The notes under the pieces: generated by a model
Told to the model about the DNA's origin: nothing
Databases searched by the model: none
The model's input: the letters and a program-made list of their open reading frames with translations, nothing else
Program-made: the position numbers and the translations under genes
Source of the DNA: Chloroflexota bacterium
GTDB taxonomy: Bacteria > Chloroflexota > UBA11872
Direction: 5' to 3'
NCBI GenBank assembly: GCA_028874175.1
Contig: JAPPLN010000115.1
Span: 1-64,000 of the forward strand
Length of the DNA stretch: 64,000 nucleotides
Shown here: positions 1,032 to 16,552 of the stretch, in pieces
Layout: every line of letters begins with the position of its first letter
Numbering within the stretch: position 1 is the first letter of the stretch

Positions 1032-1059
1032 TTGACTTGTGCGCGCTCCGCCTGATACA
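1032..1059 (+). promoter_or_regulatory. Promoter-like boxes, copy 1
   Basis: TTGACT (1032-1037) and GATACA (1054-1059) are separated by 16 bases. The same pair with the same spacing recurs at 1418-1445 in front of the second copy of the module. Conservation between copies is the main support; GATACA is a weak match to a -10 box. Confidence 0.45.
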
Positions 1060-1072
1060 TACAGTCAACGGA

Positions 1073-1109
1073 CCGTGGGCGGTCGGTTCGCAAACCCTAC
1101 CAGCCACGG
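1073..1109 (+). promoter_or_regulatory. Conserved double-hairpin leader, copy 1
   Basis: An outer stem CCGTGG (1073-1078) pairs with CCACGG (1104-1109) and encloses a perfect inner hairpin GGTT-CGCA-AACC (1085-1096). The element spans 37 bases. The same architecture and the same total length recur at 1459-1495, while the bases between the stems differ. It could be a structured 5' leader or a protein-binding DNA element. Confidence 0.45.
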
Positions 1110-1199
1110 ACGCCTGCGACGAACTGGCAAGTCGCAGAGACGACACGTGGCTACTCGACAAGGAGCACCGCCACGGACGTTACAGCCATCATCATCGCT

Positions 1200-1370
1200 A
1201 TGGGCACGATCGGAATGACCCTGGTTCTTGCCATCAGCGGTGCGGCCTGGCGACTCGGAAGTCGCCTGGGAGCCGTCGAGAAGGGCTTGGCAAGTTGCGA
1301 ATCCGATATCAGCGAGCTGAATCGCAAAGTCGATCGCATCCTGGAGCGACTTCCTCCACCACCCGCCTAG
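1200..1370 (+). CDS. Short membrane-anchored protein, small paralogue of the coiled-coil protein at 1557-2123
   Basis: The 56-residue frame has a hydrophobic segment (IGMTLVLAISGAAW) followed by a short basic/acidic tail ending VDRILERLPPPPA. Both ends match the 188-residue protein at 1557-2123 (LTLVFAVAGAAW near the N-terminus, LDRILERLP at the C-terminus), so it is that protein without the central repeat. The start is uncertain. The position aligned with the GTG start of copy 2 is ACG at 1173, sitting 7 bases after AGGAG (1161-1165), exactly as GTG sits 7 bases after AGGAG in copy 2. Either ACG is used, or ATG at 1200, or the copy is decaying. Confidence 0.5.
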   Translation: MGTIGMTLVLAISGAAWRLGSRLGAVEKGLASCESDISELNRKVDRILERLPPPPA

Positions 1371-1417
1371 CCAGTCCTCACGCCAGCCCGCGATTTGGGC
1401 TGGGCCAGACGAGACAA

Positions 1418-1445
1418 TTGACGCTCTCGCACTCCGCCTGATACA
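1418..1445 (+). promoter_or_regulatory. Promoter-like boxes, copy 2
   Basis: TTGACG (1418-1423) and GATACA (1440-1445) with a 16-base spacer, matching copy 1 in sequence and spacing. It precedes the leader hairpin and the coiled-coil gene. Confidence 0.45.
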
Positions 1446-1458
1446 AACAATTAACGAG

Positions 1459-1495
1459 CCGTGGGCGGCGGGTTCGCAAACCTTCCGAGCCACGG
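1459..1495 (+). promoter_or_regulatory. Conserved double-hairpin leader, copy 2
   Basis: Outer stem CCGTGG (1459-1464)/CCACGG (1490-1495) and inner hairpin GGTT-CGCA-AACC (1471-1482), total 37 bases as in copy 1. Bases outside the stems have diverged, so the stems look selected. Confidence 0.45.
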
Positions 1496-1556
1496 ACCAG
1501 GAGCGTGCTGGCGGAGCGCACCGGCGACGTGTGGCCACCTGACCAGGAGTACCGCC

Positions 1557-2123
1557 GTGGACGCCATGCCCATCGTTGTCACCATGATCACCGTCGGCCT
1601 CACCCTGGTCTTTGCCGTAGCCGGCGCCGCCTGGCACGTCGGCATGCGCCTCGGCACCGTCCAGAGAGGCGTGGCCGACGGCGACGAATACACTCGTGAA
1701 CTGCGGACTGATGTTCGCGAAATGCGCGCCGAGTCGCGGTCTGACAACCAGGAATTGCGGACCGAAGTCGAGCAAGTGCGGACCGCTGTGCGAGCCGACG
1801 TTCAACAAGTACGAACTGAGGTCCACAATCTCCGGACCGACGTGACGGCCGAATTCCAGCAAGTGCGGACTGATGTGAAGGACGACATCCAGCTCGTCCG
1901 GACCGAAGTCCGCGACCTGCGGACCGAGGTCAAGTCCGACTTCAAGGAACTTCGCGCCGACGTCAAGGCCGACATGCAGGAGATGCGCGCCGACGTCAAG
2001 ACCGACATGCAGGAACTCCGCACCGACCTGCACGCCGACATCGACGATCTCCGGTCCGAGGTTCGGCAAACCAACGACAAACTCGACCGAATCCTCGAGC
2101 GCCTCCCACACACTGTCCCCTAG
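1557..2123 (+). CDS. Membrane-anchored coiled-coil repeat protein
   Basis: A 188-residue protein. Residues about 4-27 form one membrane segment. Residues about 45-170 are a long charged helix built from repeats of roughly 11 residues of the type (V/L)RTEVxxLRTDV with FQQ, FKE or MQE between them, predicted to form a coiled coil. It ends with LDRILERLPHTVP, shared with the small paralogue upstream. The GTG start at 1557 was chosen because AGGAG (1545-1549) lies 7 bases upstream; an in-frame ATG at 1566 is the alternative. No enzyme signature is visible. The repeat invites slippage, so length may vary between strains. Cell-envelope or membrane scaffolding is only a guess. Confidence 0.7.
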   Translation: MDAMPIVVTMITVGLTLVFAVAGAAWHVGMRLGTVQRGVADGDEYTRELRTDVREMRAESRSDNQELRTEVEQVRTAVRADVQQVRTEVHNLRTDVTAEFQQVRTDVKDDIQLVRTEVRDLRTEVKSDFKELRADVKADMQEMRADVKTDMQELRTDLHADIDDLRSEVRQTNDKLDRILERLPHTVP

Positions 2124-2781: not shown

Positions 2782-4239
2782 ATGAGCCAGGACCAGAGCC
2801 GCCCCAACGTGCTGCTCATCATCACCGACCAGCAGCGTGGCGACTGCCTGGGCATCGACGGCCACCCCGTCCTGCAGACCCCCGCCATGGACTGGCTCGG
2901 CGCCTCCGGCACCTTCTTCCGCCGCGGCTACTCCGAGTCCCCTTCCTGCATCCCGGCCCGCCGCGTCCTCATGTCCGGCCGCCCGCCCGACGAGGACGGC
3001 ATGGTCGGTTTCATGAGCGCCCCCTGGGACCCGCCCGCCACCCTGGCCGGCGAGCTGCGGGCCGCCGGCTACGAAACCCGCATGGTCGGCAAGCTCCACC
3101 TCCATCCCAAGCGCAAGCGATTCGGCTTCGACGTCCTCGAACTCGCCGACTCCACCCGCGCCGACGACAACGAATACCTGGACTGGCTCGGCGGTGAGTT
3201 CCCCCTCGACCGCTGGGCCATGGCCCACGGCGCCACCCCCAACGGCTGGATCGGCCGCCCCAACCACCTCCCCGAGGAGAAGACCCACACCTTCTGGTGC
3301 GTCTCCCGCGCCATCGAGTACCTCGAAAAGCGCGACCCCTCCTGCCCCTTCTTCCTCAACGTCTCCTTCATCGACCCCCATCCCCCAATGACCCCGCCCG
3401 ATTGGTTCTTCGACCGCTACGCCGCGCTCGACCTTCCCGAGCCGGCCATGGGCGACTGGATGGAGCCGTGGGAAGGCCCGCCCCGCGGCATCCCGGCCGA
3501 GAAGGGCCCCTACGGCCAGCGCGGCCCCATCGACCCCGGTGCCATGCACAACCTGCGCGCGGCCTACTACGGCTTGATCAACCACATCGACATGCAGATG
3601 AGCCGGCTATTCCAATACATGCGCGACAGCGGCCTGCTGGAAGAGACCTTCATCATTTTCGTCAGCGACCACGGCGAGATGCTCGGTGACCACCAGATGT
3701 ACTCCAAGTGCCGCGCCTTCGACGCCTCCGCCCGCGTCCCCTTCCTGGCTCGCGCTCCCCAGCGCATGGGCTTCCCCCGCGAAATCGTCTGCGATCAGCC
3801 CGTCGGCCTCCAGGACGTCATGCCCACCATCCTCGAAGCCGTCGGTGCCCCAGTCCCCGAGTCCGTCAGCGGCCGCAGCCTGCTGCCCCTCATGCGCGGC
3901 GACGACGCCGACTGGCGCCCATACCTGCACGGCGAGCACTGCGGCATGTACCGCTACGTCGACGGCAACCACTGGCTGGTCGATACGCGCTACAAGTACA
4001 TCTGGATGAGCCAGACTGGCCGCGAGCTCTTCTTCGACCTTCACGAAGACCCGCTCGAGGAGCGCGACCTGTCTCAGCAGGCAGACCTCGCCCCTTGGCG
4101 TGAGCACCTGATCGAGAAGCTGCGCGACCGTCCGGAAGGCTTTACCGACGGCCAGCGCCTGATTCCCGGCCAGCCACACGAGCACATGATTCCAACCATG
4201 GTCCCGCCGGGCATCACCGTGACCCGGCCCAAGCTCTAG
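2782..4239 (+). CDS. Sulfatase, type I formylglycine-dependent (first of a tandem pair)
   Basis: 485 residues, alkaline-phosphatase superfamily. N-terminal PNVLLIITDQQ supplies a metal-binding Asp (about D16). The catalytic motif is CIPAR with Cys at about 56, fitting the C-x-P-x-R signal for conversion of Cys to formylglycine, followed by RVLMSG. A second metal motif, VSDHGEMLGDH, lies near the middle. It hydrolyses a sulfate ester, substrate unknown. No signal peptide is seen, so it is probably cytoplasmic unless the start is wrong. Start ATG 2782 gives MSQDQ; ATG 2773 in the same frame adds three residues, and neither has a good ribosome binding site. It is closely similar to the next gene, which starts 11 bases after its stop, so the two probably form an operon after tandem duplication. 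Confidence 0.9.
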   Translation: MSQDQSRPNVLLIITDQQRGDCLGIDGHPVLQTPAMDWLGASGTFFRRGYSESPSCIPARRVLMSGRPPDEDGMVGFMSAPWDPPATLAGELRAAGYETRMVGKLHLHPKRKRFGFDVLELADSTRADDNEYLDWLGGEFPLDRWAMAHGATPNGWIGRPNHLPEEKTHTFWCVSRAIEYLEKRDPSCPFFLNVSFIDPHPPMTPPDWFFDRYAALDLPEPAMGDWMEPWEGPPRGIPAEKGPYGQRGPIDPGAMHNLRAAYYGLINHIDMQMSRLFQYMRDSGLLEETFIIFVSDHGEMLGDHQMYSKCRAFDASARVPFLARAPQRMGFPREIVCDQPVGLQDVMPTILEAVGAPVPESVSGRSLLPLMRGDDADWRPYLHGEHCGMYRYVDGNHWLVDTRYKYIWMSQTGRELFFDLHEDPLEERDLSQQADLAPWREHLIEKLRDRPEGFTDGQRLIPGQPHEHMIPTMVPPGITVTRPKL

Positions 4240-4250
4240 CGGCTCGCGCC

Positions 4251-5771
4251 ATGGCCGACAAGCAGCCCCACATCTTGCTGATCATGACCGATCAGCAACG
4301 CAACGACGCGCTCGGCATCGCCGACCACCCGGTCCTGCAGACGCCCAACATGGACTGGATCGGCGCCACCGGCACGCGCTTCCGCCGCGGCTACACCGAA
4401 TCTCCGGCCTGCATCCCCGCTCGCCGCGTGCTCATGTCTGGCCAGGCCCCTTGCGTTAACGGCATGGTCGGAATGACCGGCGGTATTCCCTGGGATCCGC
4501 CCGCCACGCTGGCCGGCGAGCTGGGCAAGGCCGGCTACGAGACCCGCATGATCGGCAAGATCCACCTCTTCCCGCAGCGCCGCCGCTTCGGCTTCGACGC
4601 CATGGAACTGGCCGACTCGACCCGCCACGAGGACAACGATTATCTGGACTGGCTGCACGGCGAGATACCGCTCGACCGCTGGGCCATGGCCCACGGCGCC
4701 ACCCCCAACGGCTGGATCGGCCGCCCCAACCACCTGCCCGAGGAACTCACCCATACCTTCTGGTGCGTCTCCCGCGCCATCAACTTCCTGGAACGACGCG
4801 ACACCAGCCAGCCCTTCTTCCTCAACCTTTCCTTTATCGACCCTCATCCCCCATTCACCCCGCCAAAGTTCTTCTTCGACCGCTACGCGGACGTGGATCT
4901 GCCGGATCCCGTCATCGGCGACTGGGTAGAGCCCTGGAAGGGTCCGGATCGCGGCATTGATCCCGAGGTTCGCTCTGAACGGCGCTTCTACCGCCGCGGC
5001 ATGAATCTCGATCCCCTGCCCATGCACTACATGCGCGCCGCCTACTTTGGAATGATCGACCACATCGACATGCAGCTCAGCCGGCTCTTCCAGTACATGC
5101 GCGACAAGGGTGTGCTGGAGGACACGCTGGTCGTCTTCGTCAGCGACCACGGCGAGATGCTCGGCGACCACTACCACATCGCCAAGAGCTTTCCCTTCGA
5201 AGCCTCCGCCGGCATTCCCTTCCTCATCAACCCGCCCGAGGCCTGGGGCGCCCCGCGCGCACAGGTCCTCGACCAGCCCGTTGGTCTGCAGGACATCATG
5301 CCCACCCTCATCGACGCTGCCGGCGCCGACGTCCCGTCCTCGGTCACCGGTCGCAGCCTGGTCCCGCTGGTCCGCGGCGAGTCTGTCGCTTGGCGCGACG
5401 CGCTCCACCTGGAATACGCCAGCGGCGCGGGCTCCGAACTAGCGCTTGGAACCACGCAACACGAACCCCCGCCGGCCGAACAACAGTGGGCCCGCGGCTG
5501 GCACGCCTTAGTCAACGAAAGTCACAAGTACATCTGGGAAAGCCAGACCGGCCAGGAGCTCTTGTTCGACGTCCGCAACGACCCGTTCGAAGAGCGCGAC
5601 CTCTCCGCGCAGTCCGACCTCGGTCCTTGGCGACAGCGCCTCATCGAGCAACTGCGCGGCCGCCCCGAAGGCTTCACCGACGGCTCCCGGCTCATTACCG
5701 GCCGCCCCCACGACCACATGGTCCCCGGCCTCGGCCCACCCAGCTACAACCCCGGCCCACCCGTCTACTAG
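4251..5771 (+). CDS. Sulfatase, type I formylglycine-dependent (second of a tandem pair)
   Basis: 506 residues with PHILLIMTDQQ at the N-terminus, formylglycine motif CIPAR (Cys about 54) and metal motif VSDHGEMLGDH. Long stretches match the preceding sulfatase almost word for word, for example RWAMAHGATPNGWIGRPNHL. Differences are an insertion before the central helix (around EVRSERRFYRRG) and a longer loop before HKYIWESQTG; both sit where sulfatases vary in substrate recognition. The pair probably acts on related but different sulfate esters. The last four bases overlap the stop of the convergent MFS gene. Confidence 0.9.
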   Translation: MADKQPHILLIMTDQQRNDALGIADHPVLQTPNMDWIGATGTRFRRGYTESPACIPARRVLMSGQAPCVNGMVGMTGGIPWDPPATLAGELGKAGYETRMIGKIHLFPQRRRFGFDAMELADSTRHEDNDYLDWLHGEIPLDRWAMAHGATPNGWIGRPNHLPEELTHTFWCVSRAINFLERRDTSQPFFLNLSFIDPHPPFTPPKFFFDRYADVDLPDPVIGDWVEPWKGPDRGIDPEVRSERRFYRRGMNLDPLPMHYMRAAYFGMIDHIDMQLSRLFQYMRDKGVLEDTLVVFVSDHGEMLGDHYHIAKSFPFEASAGIPFLINPPEAWGAPRAQVLDQPVGLQDIMPTLIDAAGADVPSSVTGRSLVPLVRGESVAWRDALHLEYASGAGSELALGTTQHEPPPAEQQWARGWHALVNESHKYIWESQTGQELLFDVRNDPFEERDLSAQSDLGPWRQRLIEQLRGRPEGFTDGSRLITGRPHDHMVPGLGPPSYNPGPPVY

Positions 5772-15190: not shown

Positions 15191-16552
15191 GTGCCCCCGA
15201 ACTTCCTGTTCCTGATCGCCGACGACCATCGGCACGACGCCATCGGGTCACTGGGCAATCCGGCAGTCCACACGCCGACCCTGGACGCCCTGGCCGCGGC
15301 CGGGACCGCGCTGACCAGCACCTACATCATGGGGTCCACGTCCAACGCGGTCTGCATGCCCAGCCGGGCGATGCTGATGACCGGGCGCTCGCTGTTCCGA
15401 GTATTCGCTCCGAATCTGGAGGATGTTTCGCCATACCCGATGGATCCCGAGATTCCGACGTTTCCACAGCTGCTACGCGGAGCGGGCTATCGAACCTACG
15501 GCGTGGGCAAGTGGCACAACGAGCCGGACCTCTTCGCGCGCAGTTTCGACGGCGGCGGCAGCATCTTTTTCGGCGGGATGTCCGACCACGACGCCGTGCC
15601 GCTGCACGAGTTCGACCCGGACGGCGTTTATACGCCCGAGGCCATGGCCCCTGGCGACGGCTTCTCGACCGAGATGTTCGTCGACAGAGCGATTCAACTG
15701 CTGCGGGAGCATCCCGCCGAACAGCCGTTCTGCCTGTACACCGCGTTCACCTCGCCCCACGACCCGCGCACACCGCCCGCCGAGTTCGCGGAGATGTACC
15801 CGCCCGGGGAGATCGAGCTGTCGCCCAACTTCGCCCGCATGCACCCCTTCGATAACGGGCACCTGCACGGACGCGACGAGTCCCTGGCCGCTCATCCGCG
15901 CGATCCCGACGAGGTCCGCCAACACATCGCCGACTACTACGGGATGATCAGCCACCTGGATGCGCAGATCGGCCGGCTGCTCGCCGCGCTCGCCGCTTCA
16001 GGCCATGCCGAAGACACGATCGTCATCTACACGGCCGACCATGGACTGGCCGTCGGCCAGCACGGACTCCTAGGCAAGCAGAACGTCTACGACCACAGCC
16101 TGCGCGTCCCGCTGATCTTGCGCGGTCCGGGCATCCCCGCCGGACAGCGTCGTGAGGGGCTGTGTTACCTGCACGACATGTTCCCGACCATCCTTGATTT
16201 GGCCGGCCTCCCGGTGCCGTCCGACTGCGACGGAGTAAGCCTCGTTTCAGCGCTGACAGGACAGGACGTAGAGATTCGCGACGGTGTCTTTGCAGCCTTT
16301 CAGCGCGGCCAGAATCTCGGTTCCGGCGACTCCACGCAGCGCATGGTTCGCCGGGGGAGCCTGAAGCTAGTTGAAACGCGCATGTCCGATCGGACGCATC
16401 GTCAACTCTTCAATCTGGCCGACGATCCCTGGGAAACCTGCAACCTGGCCGACGACCCGGCCTATGCCGAACGCGTGGCGACCATGCGGCGCCTACTCAA
16501 CCGCGAGCGCCGGCGCACCGGCGACCCAGACATGCCTGGATCAGACGCGTAG
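15191..16552 (+). CDS. Sulfatase, type I formylglycine-dependent
   Basis: 453 residues. PNFLFLIADDHRHD gives the metal DD pair, CMPSR (Cys about 55) is the formylglycine motif, and TADHGLAVGQHGLLGKQ gives the second metal site. The AVGQHGLLGKQN motif resembles iduronate- and choline-sulfatase-like branches, but the substrate is not assignable. The start is GTG 15191, with no strong ribosome binding site. It is monocistronic as far as visible, with convergent amidohydrolases downstream. Confidence 0.88.
   Translation: MPPNFLFLIADDHRHDAIGSLGNPAVHTPTLDALAAAGTALTSTYIMGSTSNAVCMPSRAMLMTGRSLFRVFAPNLEDVSPYPMDPEIPTFPQLLRGAGYRTYGVGKWHNEPDLFARSFDGGGSIFFGGMSDHDAVPLHEFDPDGVYTPEAMAPGDGFSTEMFVDRAIQLLREHPAEQPFCLYTAFTSPHDPRTPPAEFAEMYPPGEIELSPNFARMHPFDNGHLHGRDESLAAHPRDPDEVRQHIADYYGMISHLDAQIGRLLAALAASGHAEDTIVIYTADHGLAVGQHGLLGKQNVYDHSLRVPLILRGPGIPAGQRREGLCYLHDMFPTILDLAGLPVPSDCDGVSLVSALTGQDVEIRDGVFAAFQRGQNLGSGDSTQRMVRRGSLKLVETRMSDRTHRQLFNLADDPWETCNLADDPAYAERVATMRRLLNRERRRTGDPDMPGSDA

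Follow-up and report, generated by a model that had tools for sequence, protein, structure and literature searches.

The window, by which we mean the whole 64,000-nucleotide stretch of DNA that was analysed, contains at positions 1032-1370 and 1418-2123 two copies of one module, as can be read directly from the letters. In each copy, promoter-like boxes are followed by a conserved leader (about 115 bases), a Shine-Dalgarno site, and the gene for a small protein that has one membrane helix and a coiled-coil tail. The genes were assigned to two classes, A (copy 1) and B (copy 2). The features are the following:

1032..1059, forward strand: promoter-like boxes of copy 1 (TTGAC at 1032-1036, GATACA at 1054-1059), kept in most copies of the genus
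1073..1109, forward strand: hairpin 1 of copy 1, the 37-base element (CCGTGG/CCACGG outside, GGTT/AACC inside); the stems are nearly invariant and the loops vary
1112..1128, forward strand: hairpin 2 of copy 1 (GCC...GGC), helix 3 of the class A structure
1131..1144, forward strand: hairpin 3 of copy 1 (GTCG...CGAC), with two pairs in which both bases differ among the class A copies
1146..1175, forward strand: ribosome-binding-site hairpin of copy 1 (CGTGGC at 1146-1151 pairs with GCCACG at 1170-1175)
1173..1370, forward strand: class A small protein gene, 65 aa, predicted ACG start; rival start ATG at 1200
1418..1445, forward strand: promoter-like boxes of copy 2 (TTGAC at 1418-1422, GATACA at 1440-1445)
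1459..1495, forward strand: hairpin 1 of copy 2, the 37-base element, with the same outer and inner stems as in copy 1
1545..1549, forward strand: Shine-Dalgarno site of copy 2
1557..2123, forward strand: class B protein gene, 188 aa, GTG start

In the ribosome-binding-site hairpin of copy 1, the AGGAG at 1161-1165 lies in the loop and the ACG start codon in the stem, and the segment 1168-1176 has an alternative pairing partner at 1073-1082. An earlier, sequence-only reading of the locus had described a duplicated module with common boxes, a doubly stemmed 37-base element, a common start context, a common membrane segment and a common C-terminus, and all of these were found. Both copies carry the TTGAC and GATACA boxes with a gap of 17 bases, or of 16 if the first box is counted as a hexamer; the generic promoter scan did not call the boxes of copy 1 (1032..1059). 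The two nested stems of the 37-base element are identical in both copies and the intervening bases differ, and a block of 70 bases has 84% identity between the copies. AGGAG precedes both the ACG at 1173 and the GTG at 1557, which occupy the aligned start position, by seven bases. The encoded proteins have the same membrane anchor and end in VDRILERLP (copy 1) and LDRILERLP (copy 2). The additional coiled-coil repeat of copy 2 is also present, but it comprises 123 residues (188 versus 65 aa) rather than the estimated 130 or so.

The tandem array and its proteins

The 148-base leader of copy 1 was used as a query and retrieved related copies from other genomes of the genus with E-values down to 1e-42; therefore, the likeness of the copies is not due to chance. 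The sequence-only reading would have had to be given up if there were no further copies, or if stems were randomly substituted. Instead, 22 intact copies were found in 11 genomes, and their stems hardly vary, with no random substitution, while the loops do vary. The array is present in 11 of the 13 genomes of the genus, mostly with two copies and with up to four (G011); G008 and G010 have one intact copy each, and G005 contains an additional third copy that is decayed. In genomes with enough sequence it is flanked by a conserved gene of about 390 aa upstream and by sulfatase genes on the other side. Leader identity is 82% within class A, 91% within class B, and 73% between the classes, which split before the species did. 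The array is a vertically inherited tandem array.

The flanking genes were also inspected in the window. Positions 39-857 encode the C-terminal part of the protein of about 390 aa, which most of the genus has conserved ahead of the array and which had no match in Pfam. Two tandem sulfatase genes (2803-5771) with long DNA stretches of 78-85% identity follow the array, and related genes stand in this place in most of the other genomes whose sequence extends far enough.

Class A proteins have 65-101 aa, with ACG at the predicted start of the gene, and consist of one membrane helix and a short coiled coil. Class B genes start with GTG, TTG or ATG and encode 177-217 aa in the orthologues that were read to the stop codon. 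For codons 10-65 of class A the pN/pS ratio is 0.20, indicating purifying selection at the protein level and, therefore, that the class A protein is real. AlphaFold2 predicts for it a single helix comprising residues 2-59 (mean pLDDT 87). The class B tail is composed of 11-residue coiled-coil repeats, visible as 33-base direct repeats and as an autocorrelation peak at 11 residues. Both classes keep the membrane anchor and the tip K[VL]DRI[LI]ERLP. In the G011 array the gene order follows the tail length (65, 72, 90, and 217 aa), with anchor and tip constant; the tail length also rises along the arrays of G007 (72, then 101 aa) and G004 (65, then 90 aa), and in most other arrays the short form comes first and the long form second. 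Such stalks, anchored in the membrane, graded in length and ending in one tip, might act as spacers or bind a partner.

A leader family in front of unrelated small genes

The leader family reaches many other small genes beyond the two copies in the window. The protein profile of class A retrieved paralogues elsewhere that have the leader ends in common, and about 44 further sites in the genus carry these ends, GGGCGG..UUCGC..ACC and GGAGGAACCGCC-start. Leaders were searched for first with a pattern and then with R1, a covariance model trained on 17 of them. R1 gave up to 8 matches per genome, with E-values down to 1e-16, in 10 of the 13 genomes of the genus. In a phylum sample of 301 genomes from 179 genera its matches lay in this genus and none outside; a class sample yielded one leader match, in a genome of another family (G035). 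That locus (L271, G035:C421:2283-2363) has a group D leader and protein, and may represent a transfer or a misbinned contig. One R1 match in the window (15684-15757, E 0.066) looks like chance and was discarded, and the same applied to a short-pattern scan of the genome contigs, in which the pattern was too short and the matches were chance. Viral contigs contained no relatives of the proteins and no match to the DNA pattern.

Nearly all of the approximately 44 leaders run straight into the start of a small ORF. At least eight groups of such ORFs were distinguished (C, D, F, G, H, I, J, and K). In most of them the protein has 49-90 aa, a single membrane helix and a coiled coil; whether the helix is N- or C-terminal depends on the group. 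The leaders of groups C and F in G000 are 92% identical, compared with 77% for the F leaders of G000 and G001; leaders are swapped between unrelated ORFs. Several leader-bearing copies are decayed or have no start codon. In one group J copy (L266, G006:C28:97398-97475) AAG replaces the ATG of the other copies, and the remaining ORF is intact.

The genes downstream of the leader units vary by locus and, judged by eye, are Uma2-, RelE-, PIN-, or SDR-like; in the window they are the two sulfatases. Because they differ, there is no common partner, and a function as an operon was rejected. Uma2-like genes, again by eye, follow group F or I units at L197, L252, L237, and L251: they lie behind groups F and I in G000 and behind group F in G006, G008, and G009, and in G000 the start of the Uma2-like gene overlaps the stop of the group I gene. 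At L197 (G000:C79), many interspersed, REP-like CCCTCTCC...GGAGAGGG repeats are found between the small genes. Sub-threshold matches to the whalefall-1 RNA lie near leaders at L217 (1219-1272, 2031-2089, and 2157-2215) and L201 (4427-4485).

The leader family and the array appear to be undescribed in the libraries searched. Rfam 15 covariance models gave no match in the window above the gathering cut-off and, at E <= 1, none overlapping the leader in five leader-bearing loci. The small proteins matched no Rfam, Pfam, PHROG, NCBIfam, or PADLOC family beyond generic coiled coils. The family forms a countable, regulon-like set of small membrane proteins and offers a handle on a poorly annotated part of bacterial genomes.

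Leader structure and the start codon of class A

That stems hold while loops differ had been taken to suggest a selected RNA or DNA structure. For class A this was corroborated by compensatory changes and by excess folding energy; class B, including copy 2, has neither, so the case for a structure does not cover both copies. The class A structure was drawn by hand and has five helices. In this structure 95% of the cells are paired, versus 30-44% when it is slid, and 7 cells have changes on both sides, a number reached by 0 of 500 shuffles. The stems of the 37-base element are almost invariant and, therefore, the main stems provide no evidence from covariation; it is supplied by the hairpin at 1131-1144, in which several copies have G-C instead of U-A and U-A instead of C-G. 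These changes may go back to no more than two or three events. In the alternative fold, 1073-1082 pairs with 1168-1176 across the start codon; 98% of the cells keep this pairing, with no double changes.

Folding energies were compared with those of shuffled sequences. Copy 1 is more stable (z -3.6) and copy 2 is not (z +1.0); the z values are about -1.9 for class A, -1.7 for group C, -3.3 for D, and -2.0 for F, and class B and groups G-K are no more stable than shuffles. Pairing of the 5' arm with the ribosome-binding site was predicted in groups C, D, and F only, and groups G-K keep only about three of the five pairs of the 5'-arm stem. For the hairpin of the leader family, changes on both sides were no more frequent than in shuffles, and a mutual-information analysis of 43 leaders, the signal of which was dominated by group structure, revealed no further helix. 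In summary, RNA structure is well supported for class A and leader groups C, D, and F, and is without support for class B and groups G-K.

To our knowledge, ACG is almost never used as a start codon by bacteria. All 13 class A copies, from nine species, have ACG seven bases past the Shine-Dalgarno site, the core of which, GGAG, is also kept in 13 of 13. The aligned codon is ATG in group C and GTG, TTG or ATG in class B. Translation of class A probably starts at this predicted ACG. The rival is a start at the ATG of codon 10 (1200 in the window), which is present in 12 of 13 copies, with the ACG merely belonging to the leader structure. In codons 2-9 of class A, which have hardly changed at all, pN/pS is about 0.9, compared with 0.22 in class B, and the synonymous sites are unusually constrained; this pattern may reflect a constraint on the RNA or the lack of translation there, and the latter would suit the ATG. 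Even so, we hold the ATG start to be a serious but weaker contender: the intact G012 copy has GTA at codon 10, the I/V changes at codons 6-8 are conservative, the ACG is the sole in-frame candidate start at a usable distance from the invariant GGAG, and it aligns with the start codons of group C and class B. No report of natural ACG starts in bacteria was found in the literature searched, which covers few subscription journals. A conserved ACG start, if true, would be a rare natural case for studying how start codons are selected. It would also account for the failure of gene finders to place the true start of class A, which the mechanical ORF list puts at codon 10.

Proposed mechanism, alternatives and known systems

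At the level of sequence, there is a tandem array with its own promoter-like boxes, leader, Shine-Dalgarno site and purifying selection, and leader ends are reused before at least eight groups. The likely function is translational control of small membrane proteins. Our preferred reading, to which we give about an even chance, is that these are genus-specific, small, single-pass, all-helical membrane proteins with transcription units of their own and a shared leader that acts as RNA on translation. Each protein would be made from its own short transcription unit behind the leader, which we infer to act on initiation. The 5' arm GGGCGG(UU) would pair with (AA)CCGCC, a segment flanked by the Shine-Dalgarno site and the start codon. 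In class A, the ACG start would be covered by pairing of CCGUGGGCGG with CCGCCACGG, which would compete with hairpin 1 and with the local CGUGGC/GCCACG hairpin. Folding energy in groups C, D, and F and the structure of class A support the idea that the 5' arm can cover this segment; class B and groups G-K give no such support. The mRNA would switch between closed and open states and so give small, regulated doses of membrane protein, and in class A the weak ACG start would reduce the output further. The proteins would then anchor in the membrane, with stalks of graded length ending in the common tip. More tentatively, we propose the combination of an ACG fixed as start codon throughout the genus (13 of 13 copies, nine species) in a switchable leader, an exchangeable leader cassette, and graded membrane stalks.

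Instead of acting as RNA, the leader could owe its conservation to a role as DNA in transcription, such as that of an operator immediately past the -10 box. In groups C-K, GGGCGG..GTTCGC indeed starts about seven bases after that box, and its conservation persists even in leaders whose RNA folds no better than chance. However, conservation extends over about 80-100 bases to the start codon, and the compensatory changes of class A fall within the conserved stretch, and we consider this explanation unlikely. Somewhat less likely still are type I toxin-like units, in which a small hydrophobic protein would be silenced by its own leader and an antisense RNA. The small single-pass proteins, the multiple, tandem and decayed copies, and the complementarity of the 5' end to the ribosome-binding site speak for such units, as does the precedent of dinQ, for which inactive primary transcripts are known (PMC3567139). 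Against them, the tails are long, charged and conserved, with up to 217 aa in class B, and no antisense promoter was found in the array of the window, by a weak scan that detected no sigma-70-like sites on either strand of 850-2300 and misses the forward promoters too. The likeness of the leaders might also be due to recent duplication and gene conversion alone, without any regulatory role, and the leaders of the C79 cluster are in fact more alike within one genome than to their orthologues. We regard this as the least probable of the three, as the stems are preserved among class A leaders, whose mean identity is 82%, whereas class A synonymous sites in codons 10-65 differ at about 36%, and the same leader ends are kept before most unrelated downstream ORFs. 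Control by CsrA was rejected because PF02599 is absent from the genome, as far as its completeness of 92% allows; the control search found it in 3 known genomes.

Several known systems resemble the proposed RNA-controlled units in part. CCDC90-like/DUF1640 proteins (PF07798) also have a coiled-coil stalk and one membrane anchor; the class B score of 33.6 (cut-off 33.5) covers the repetitive coil alone, many unrelated coiled-coil models score there too, and class A and the other tested groups have no match above the cut-off. In BhlA/UviB-type small holins a short coiled coil comes after an N-terminal membrane helix, and the plan of helix plus coil is the same here, but the tested proteins have no Pfam holin match and no relatives on viral contigs. 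Pfam and PHROGs families of lysis proteins and small holins gave no match at E < 0.001 for classes or groups A, B, C, D, and F; the only matches were those of Rz-like spanins to the coils of class B (E 0.0047) and group E (E 0.00099).

The mRNAs of type I toxins of the hok, tisB, and dinQ type, with self-inhibited 5' leaders, share with our units small single-pass proteins, their own promoter, multiple copies, and a transcript 5' end complementary to the ribosome-binding site. In size and hydrophobicity, most groups correspond to type I toxin genes (49-90 aa, one hydrophobic helix), with class B at 177-217 aa. The units differ in their long conserved coiled coils and in a leader that is common to many unrelated ORFs. 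Orphan cis-regulatory RNA motifs of Rfam are likewise conserved leaders between promoter and Shine-Dalgarno site with several copies per genome, whereas the present leader has no Rfam match, is found in one genus, and precedes only small proteins, with no pathway. In infC-type control, a strong Shine-Dalgarno site and the non-standard start codon AUU are kept across species in a translation factor gene; here a rare putative start codon is likewise kept, but it is ACG and the gene does not encode a translation factor. A conserved leader of small membrane-protein genes is of a known kind; what is unusual here is that the leader is exchangeable and that ACG is fixed.
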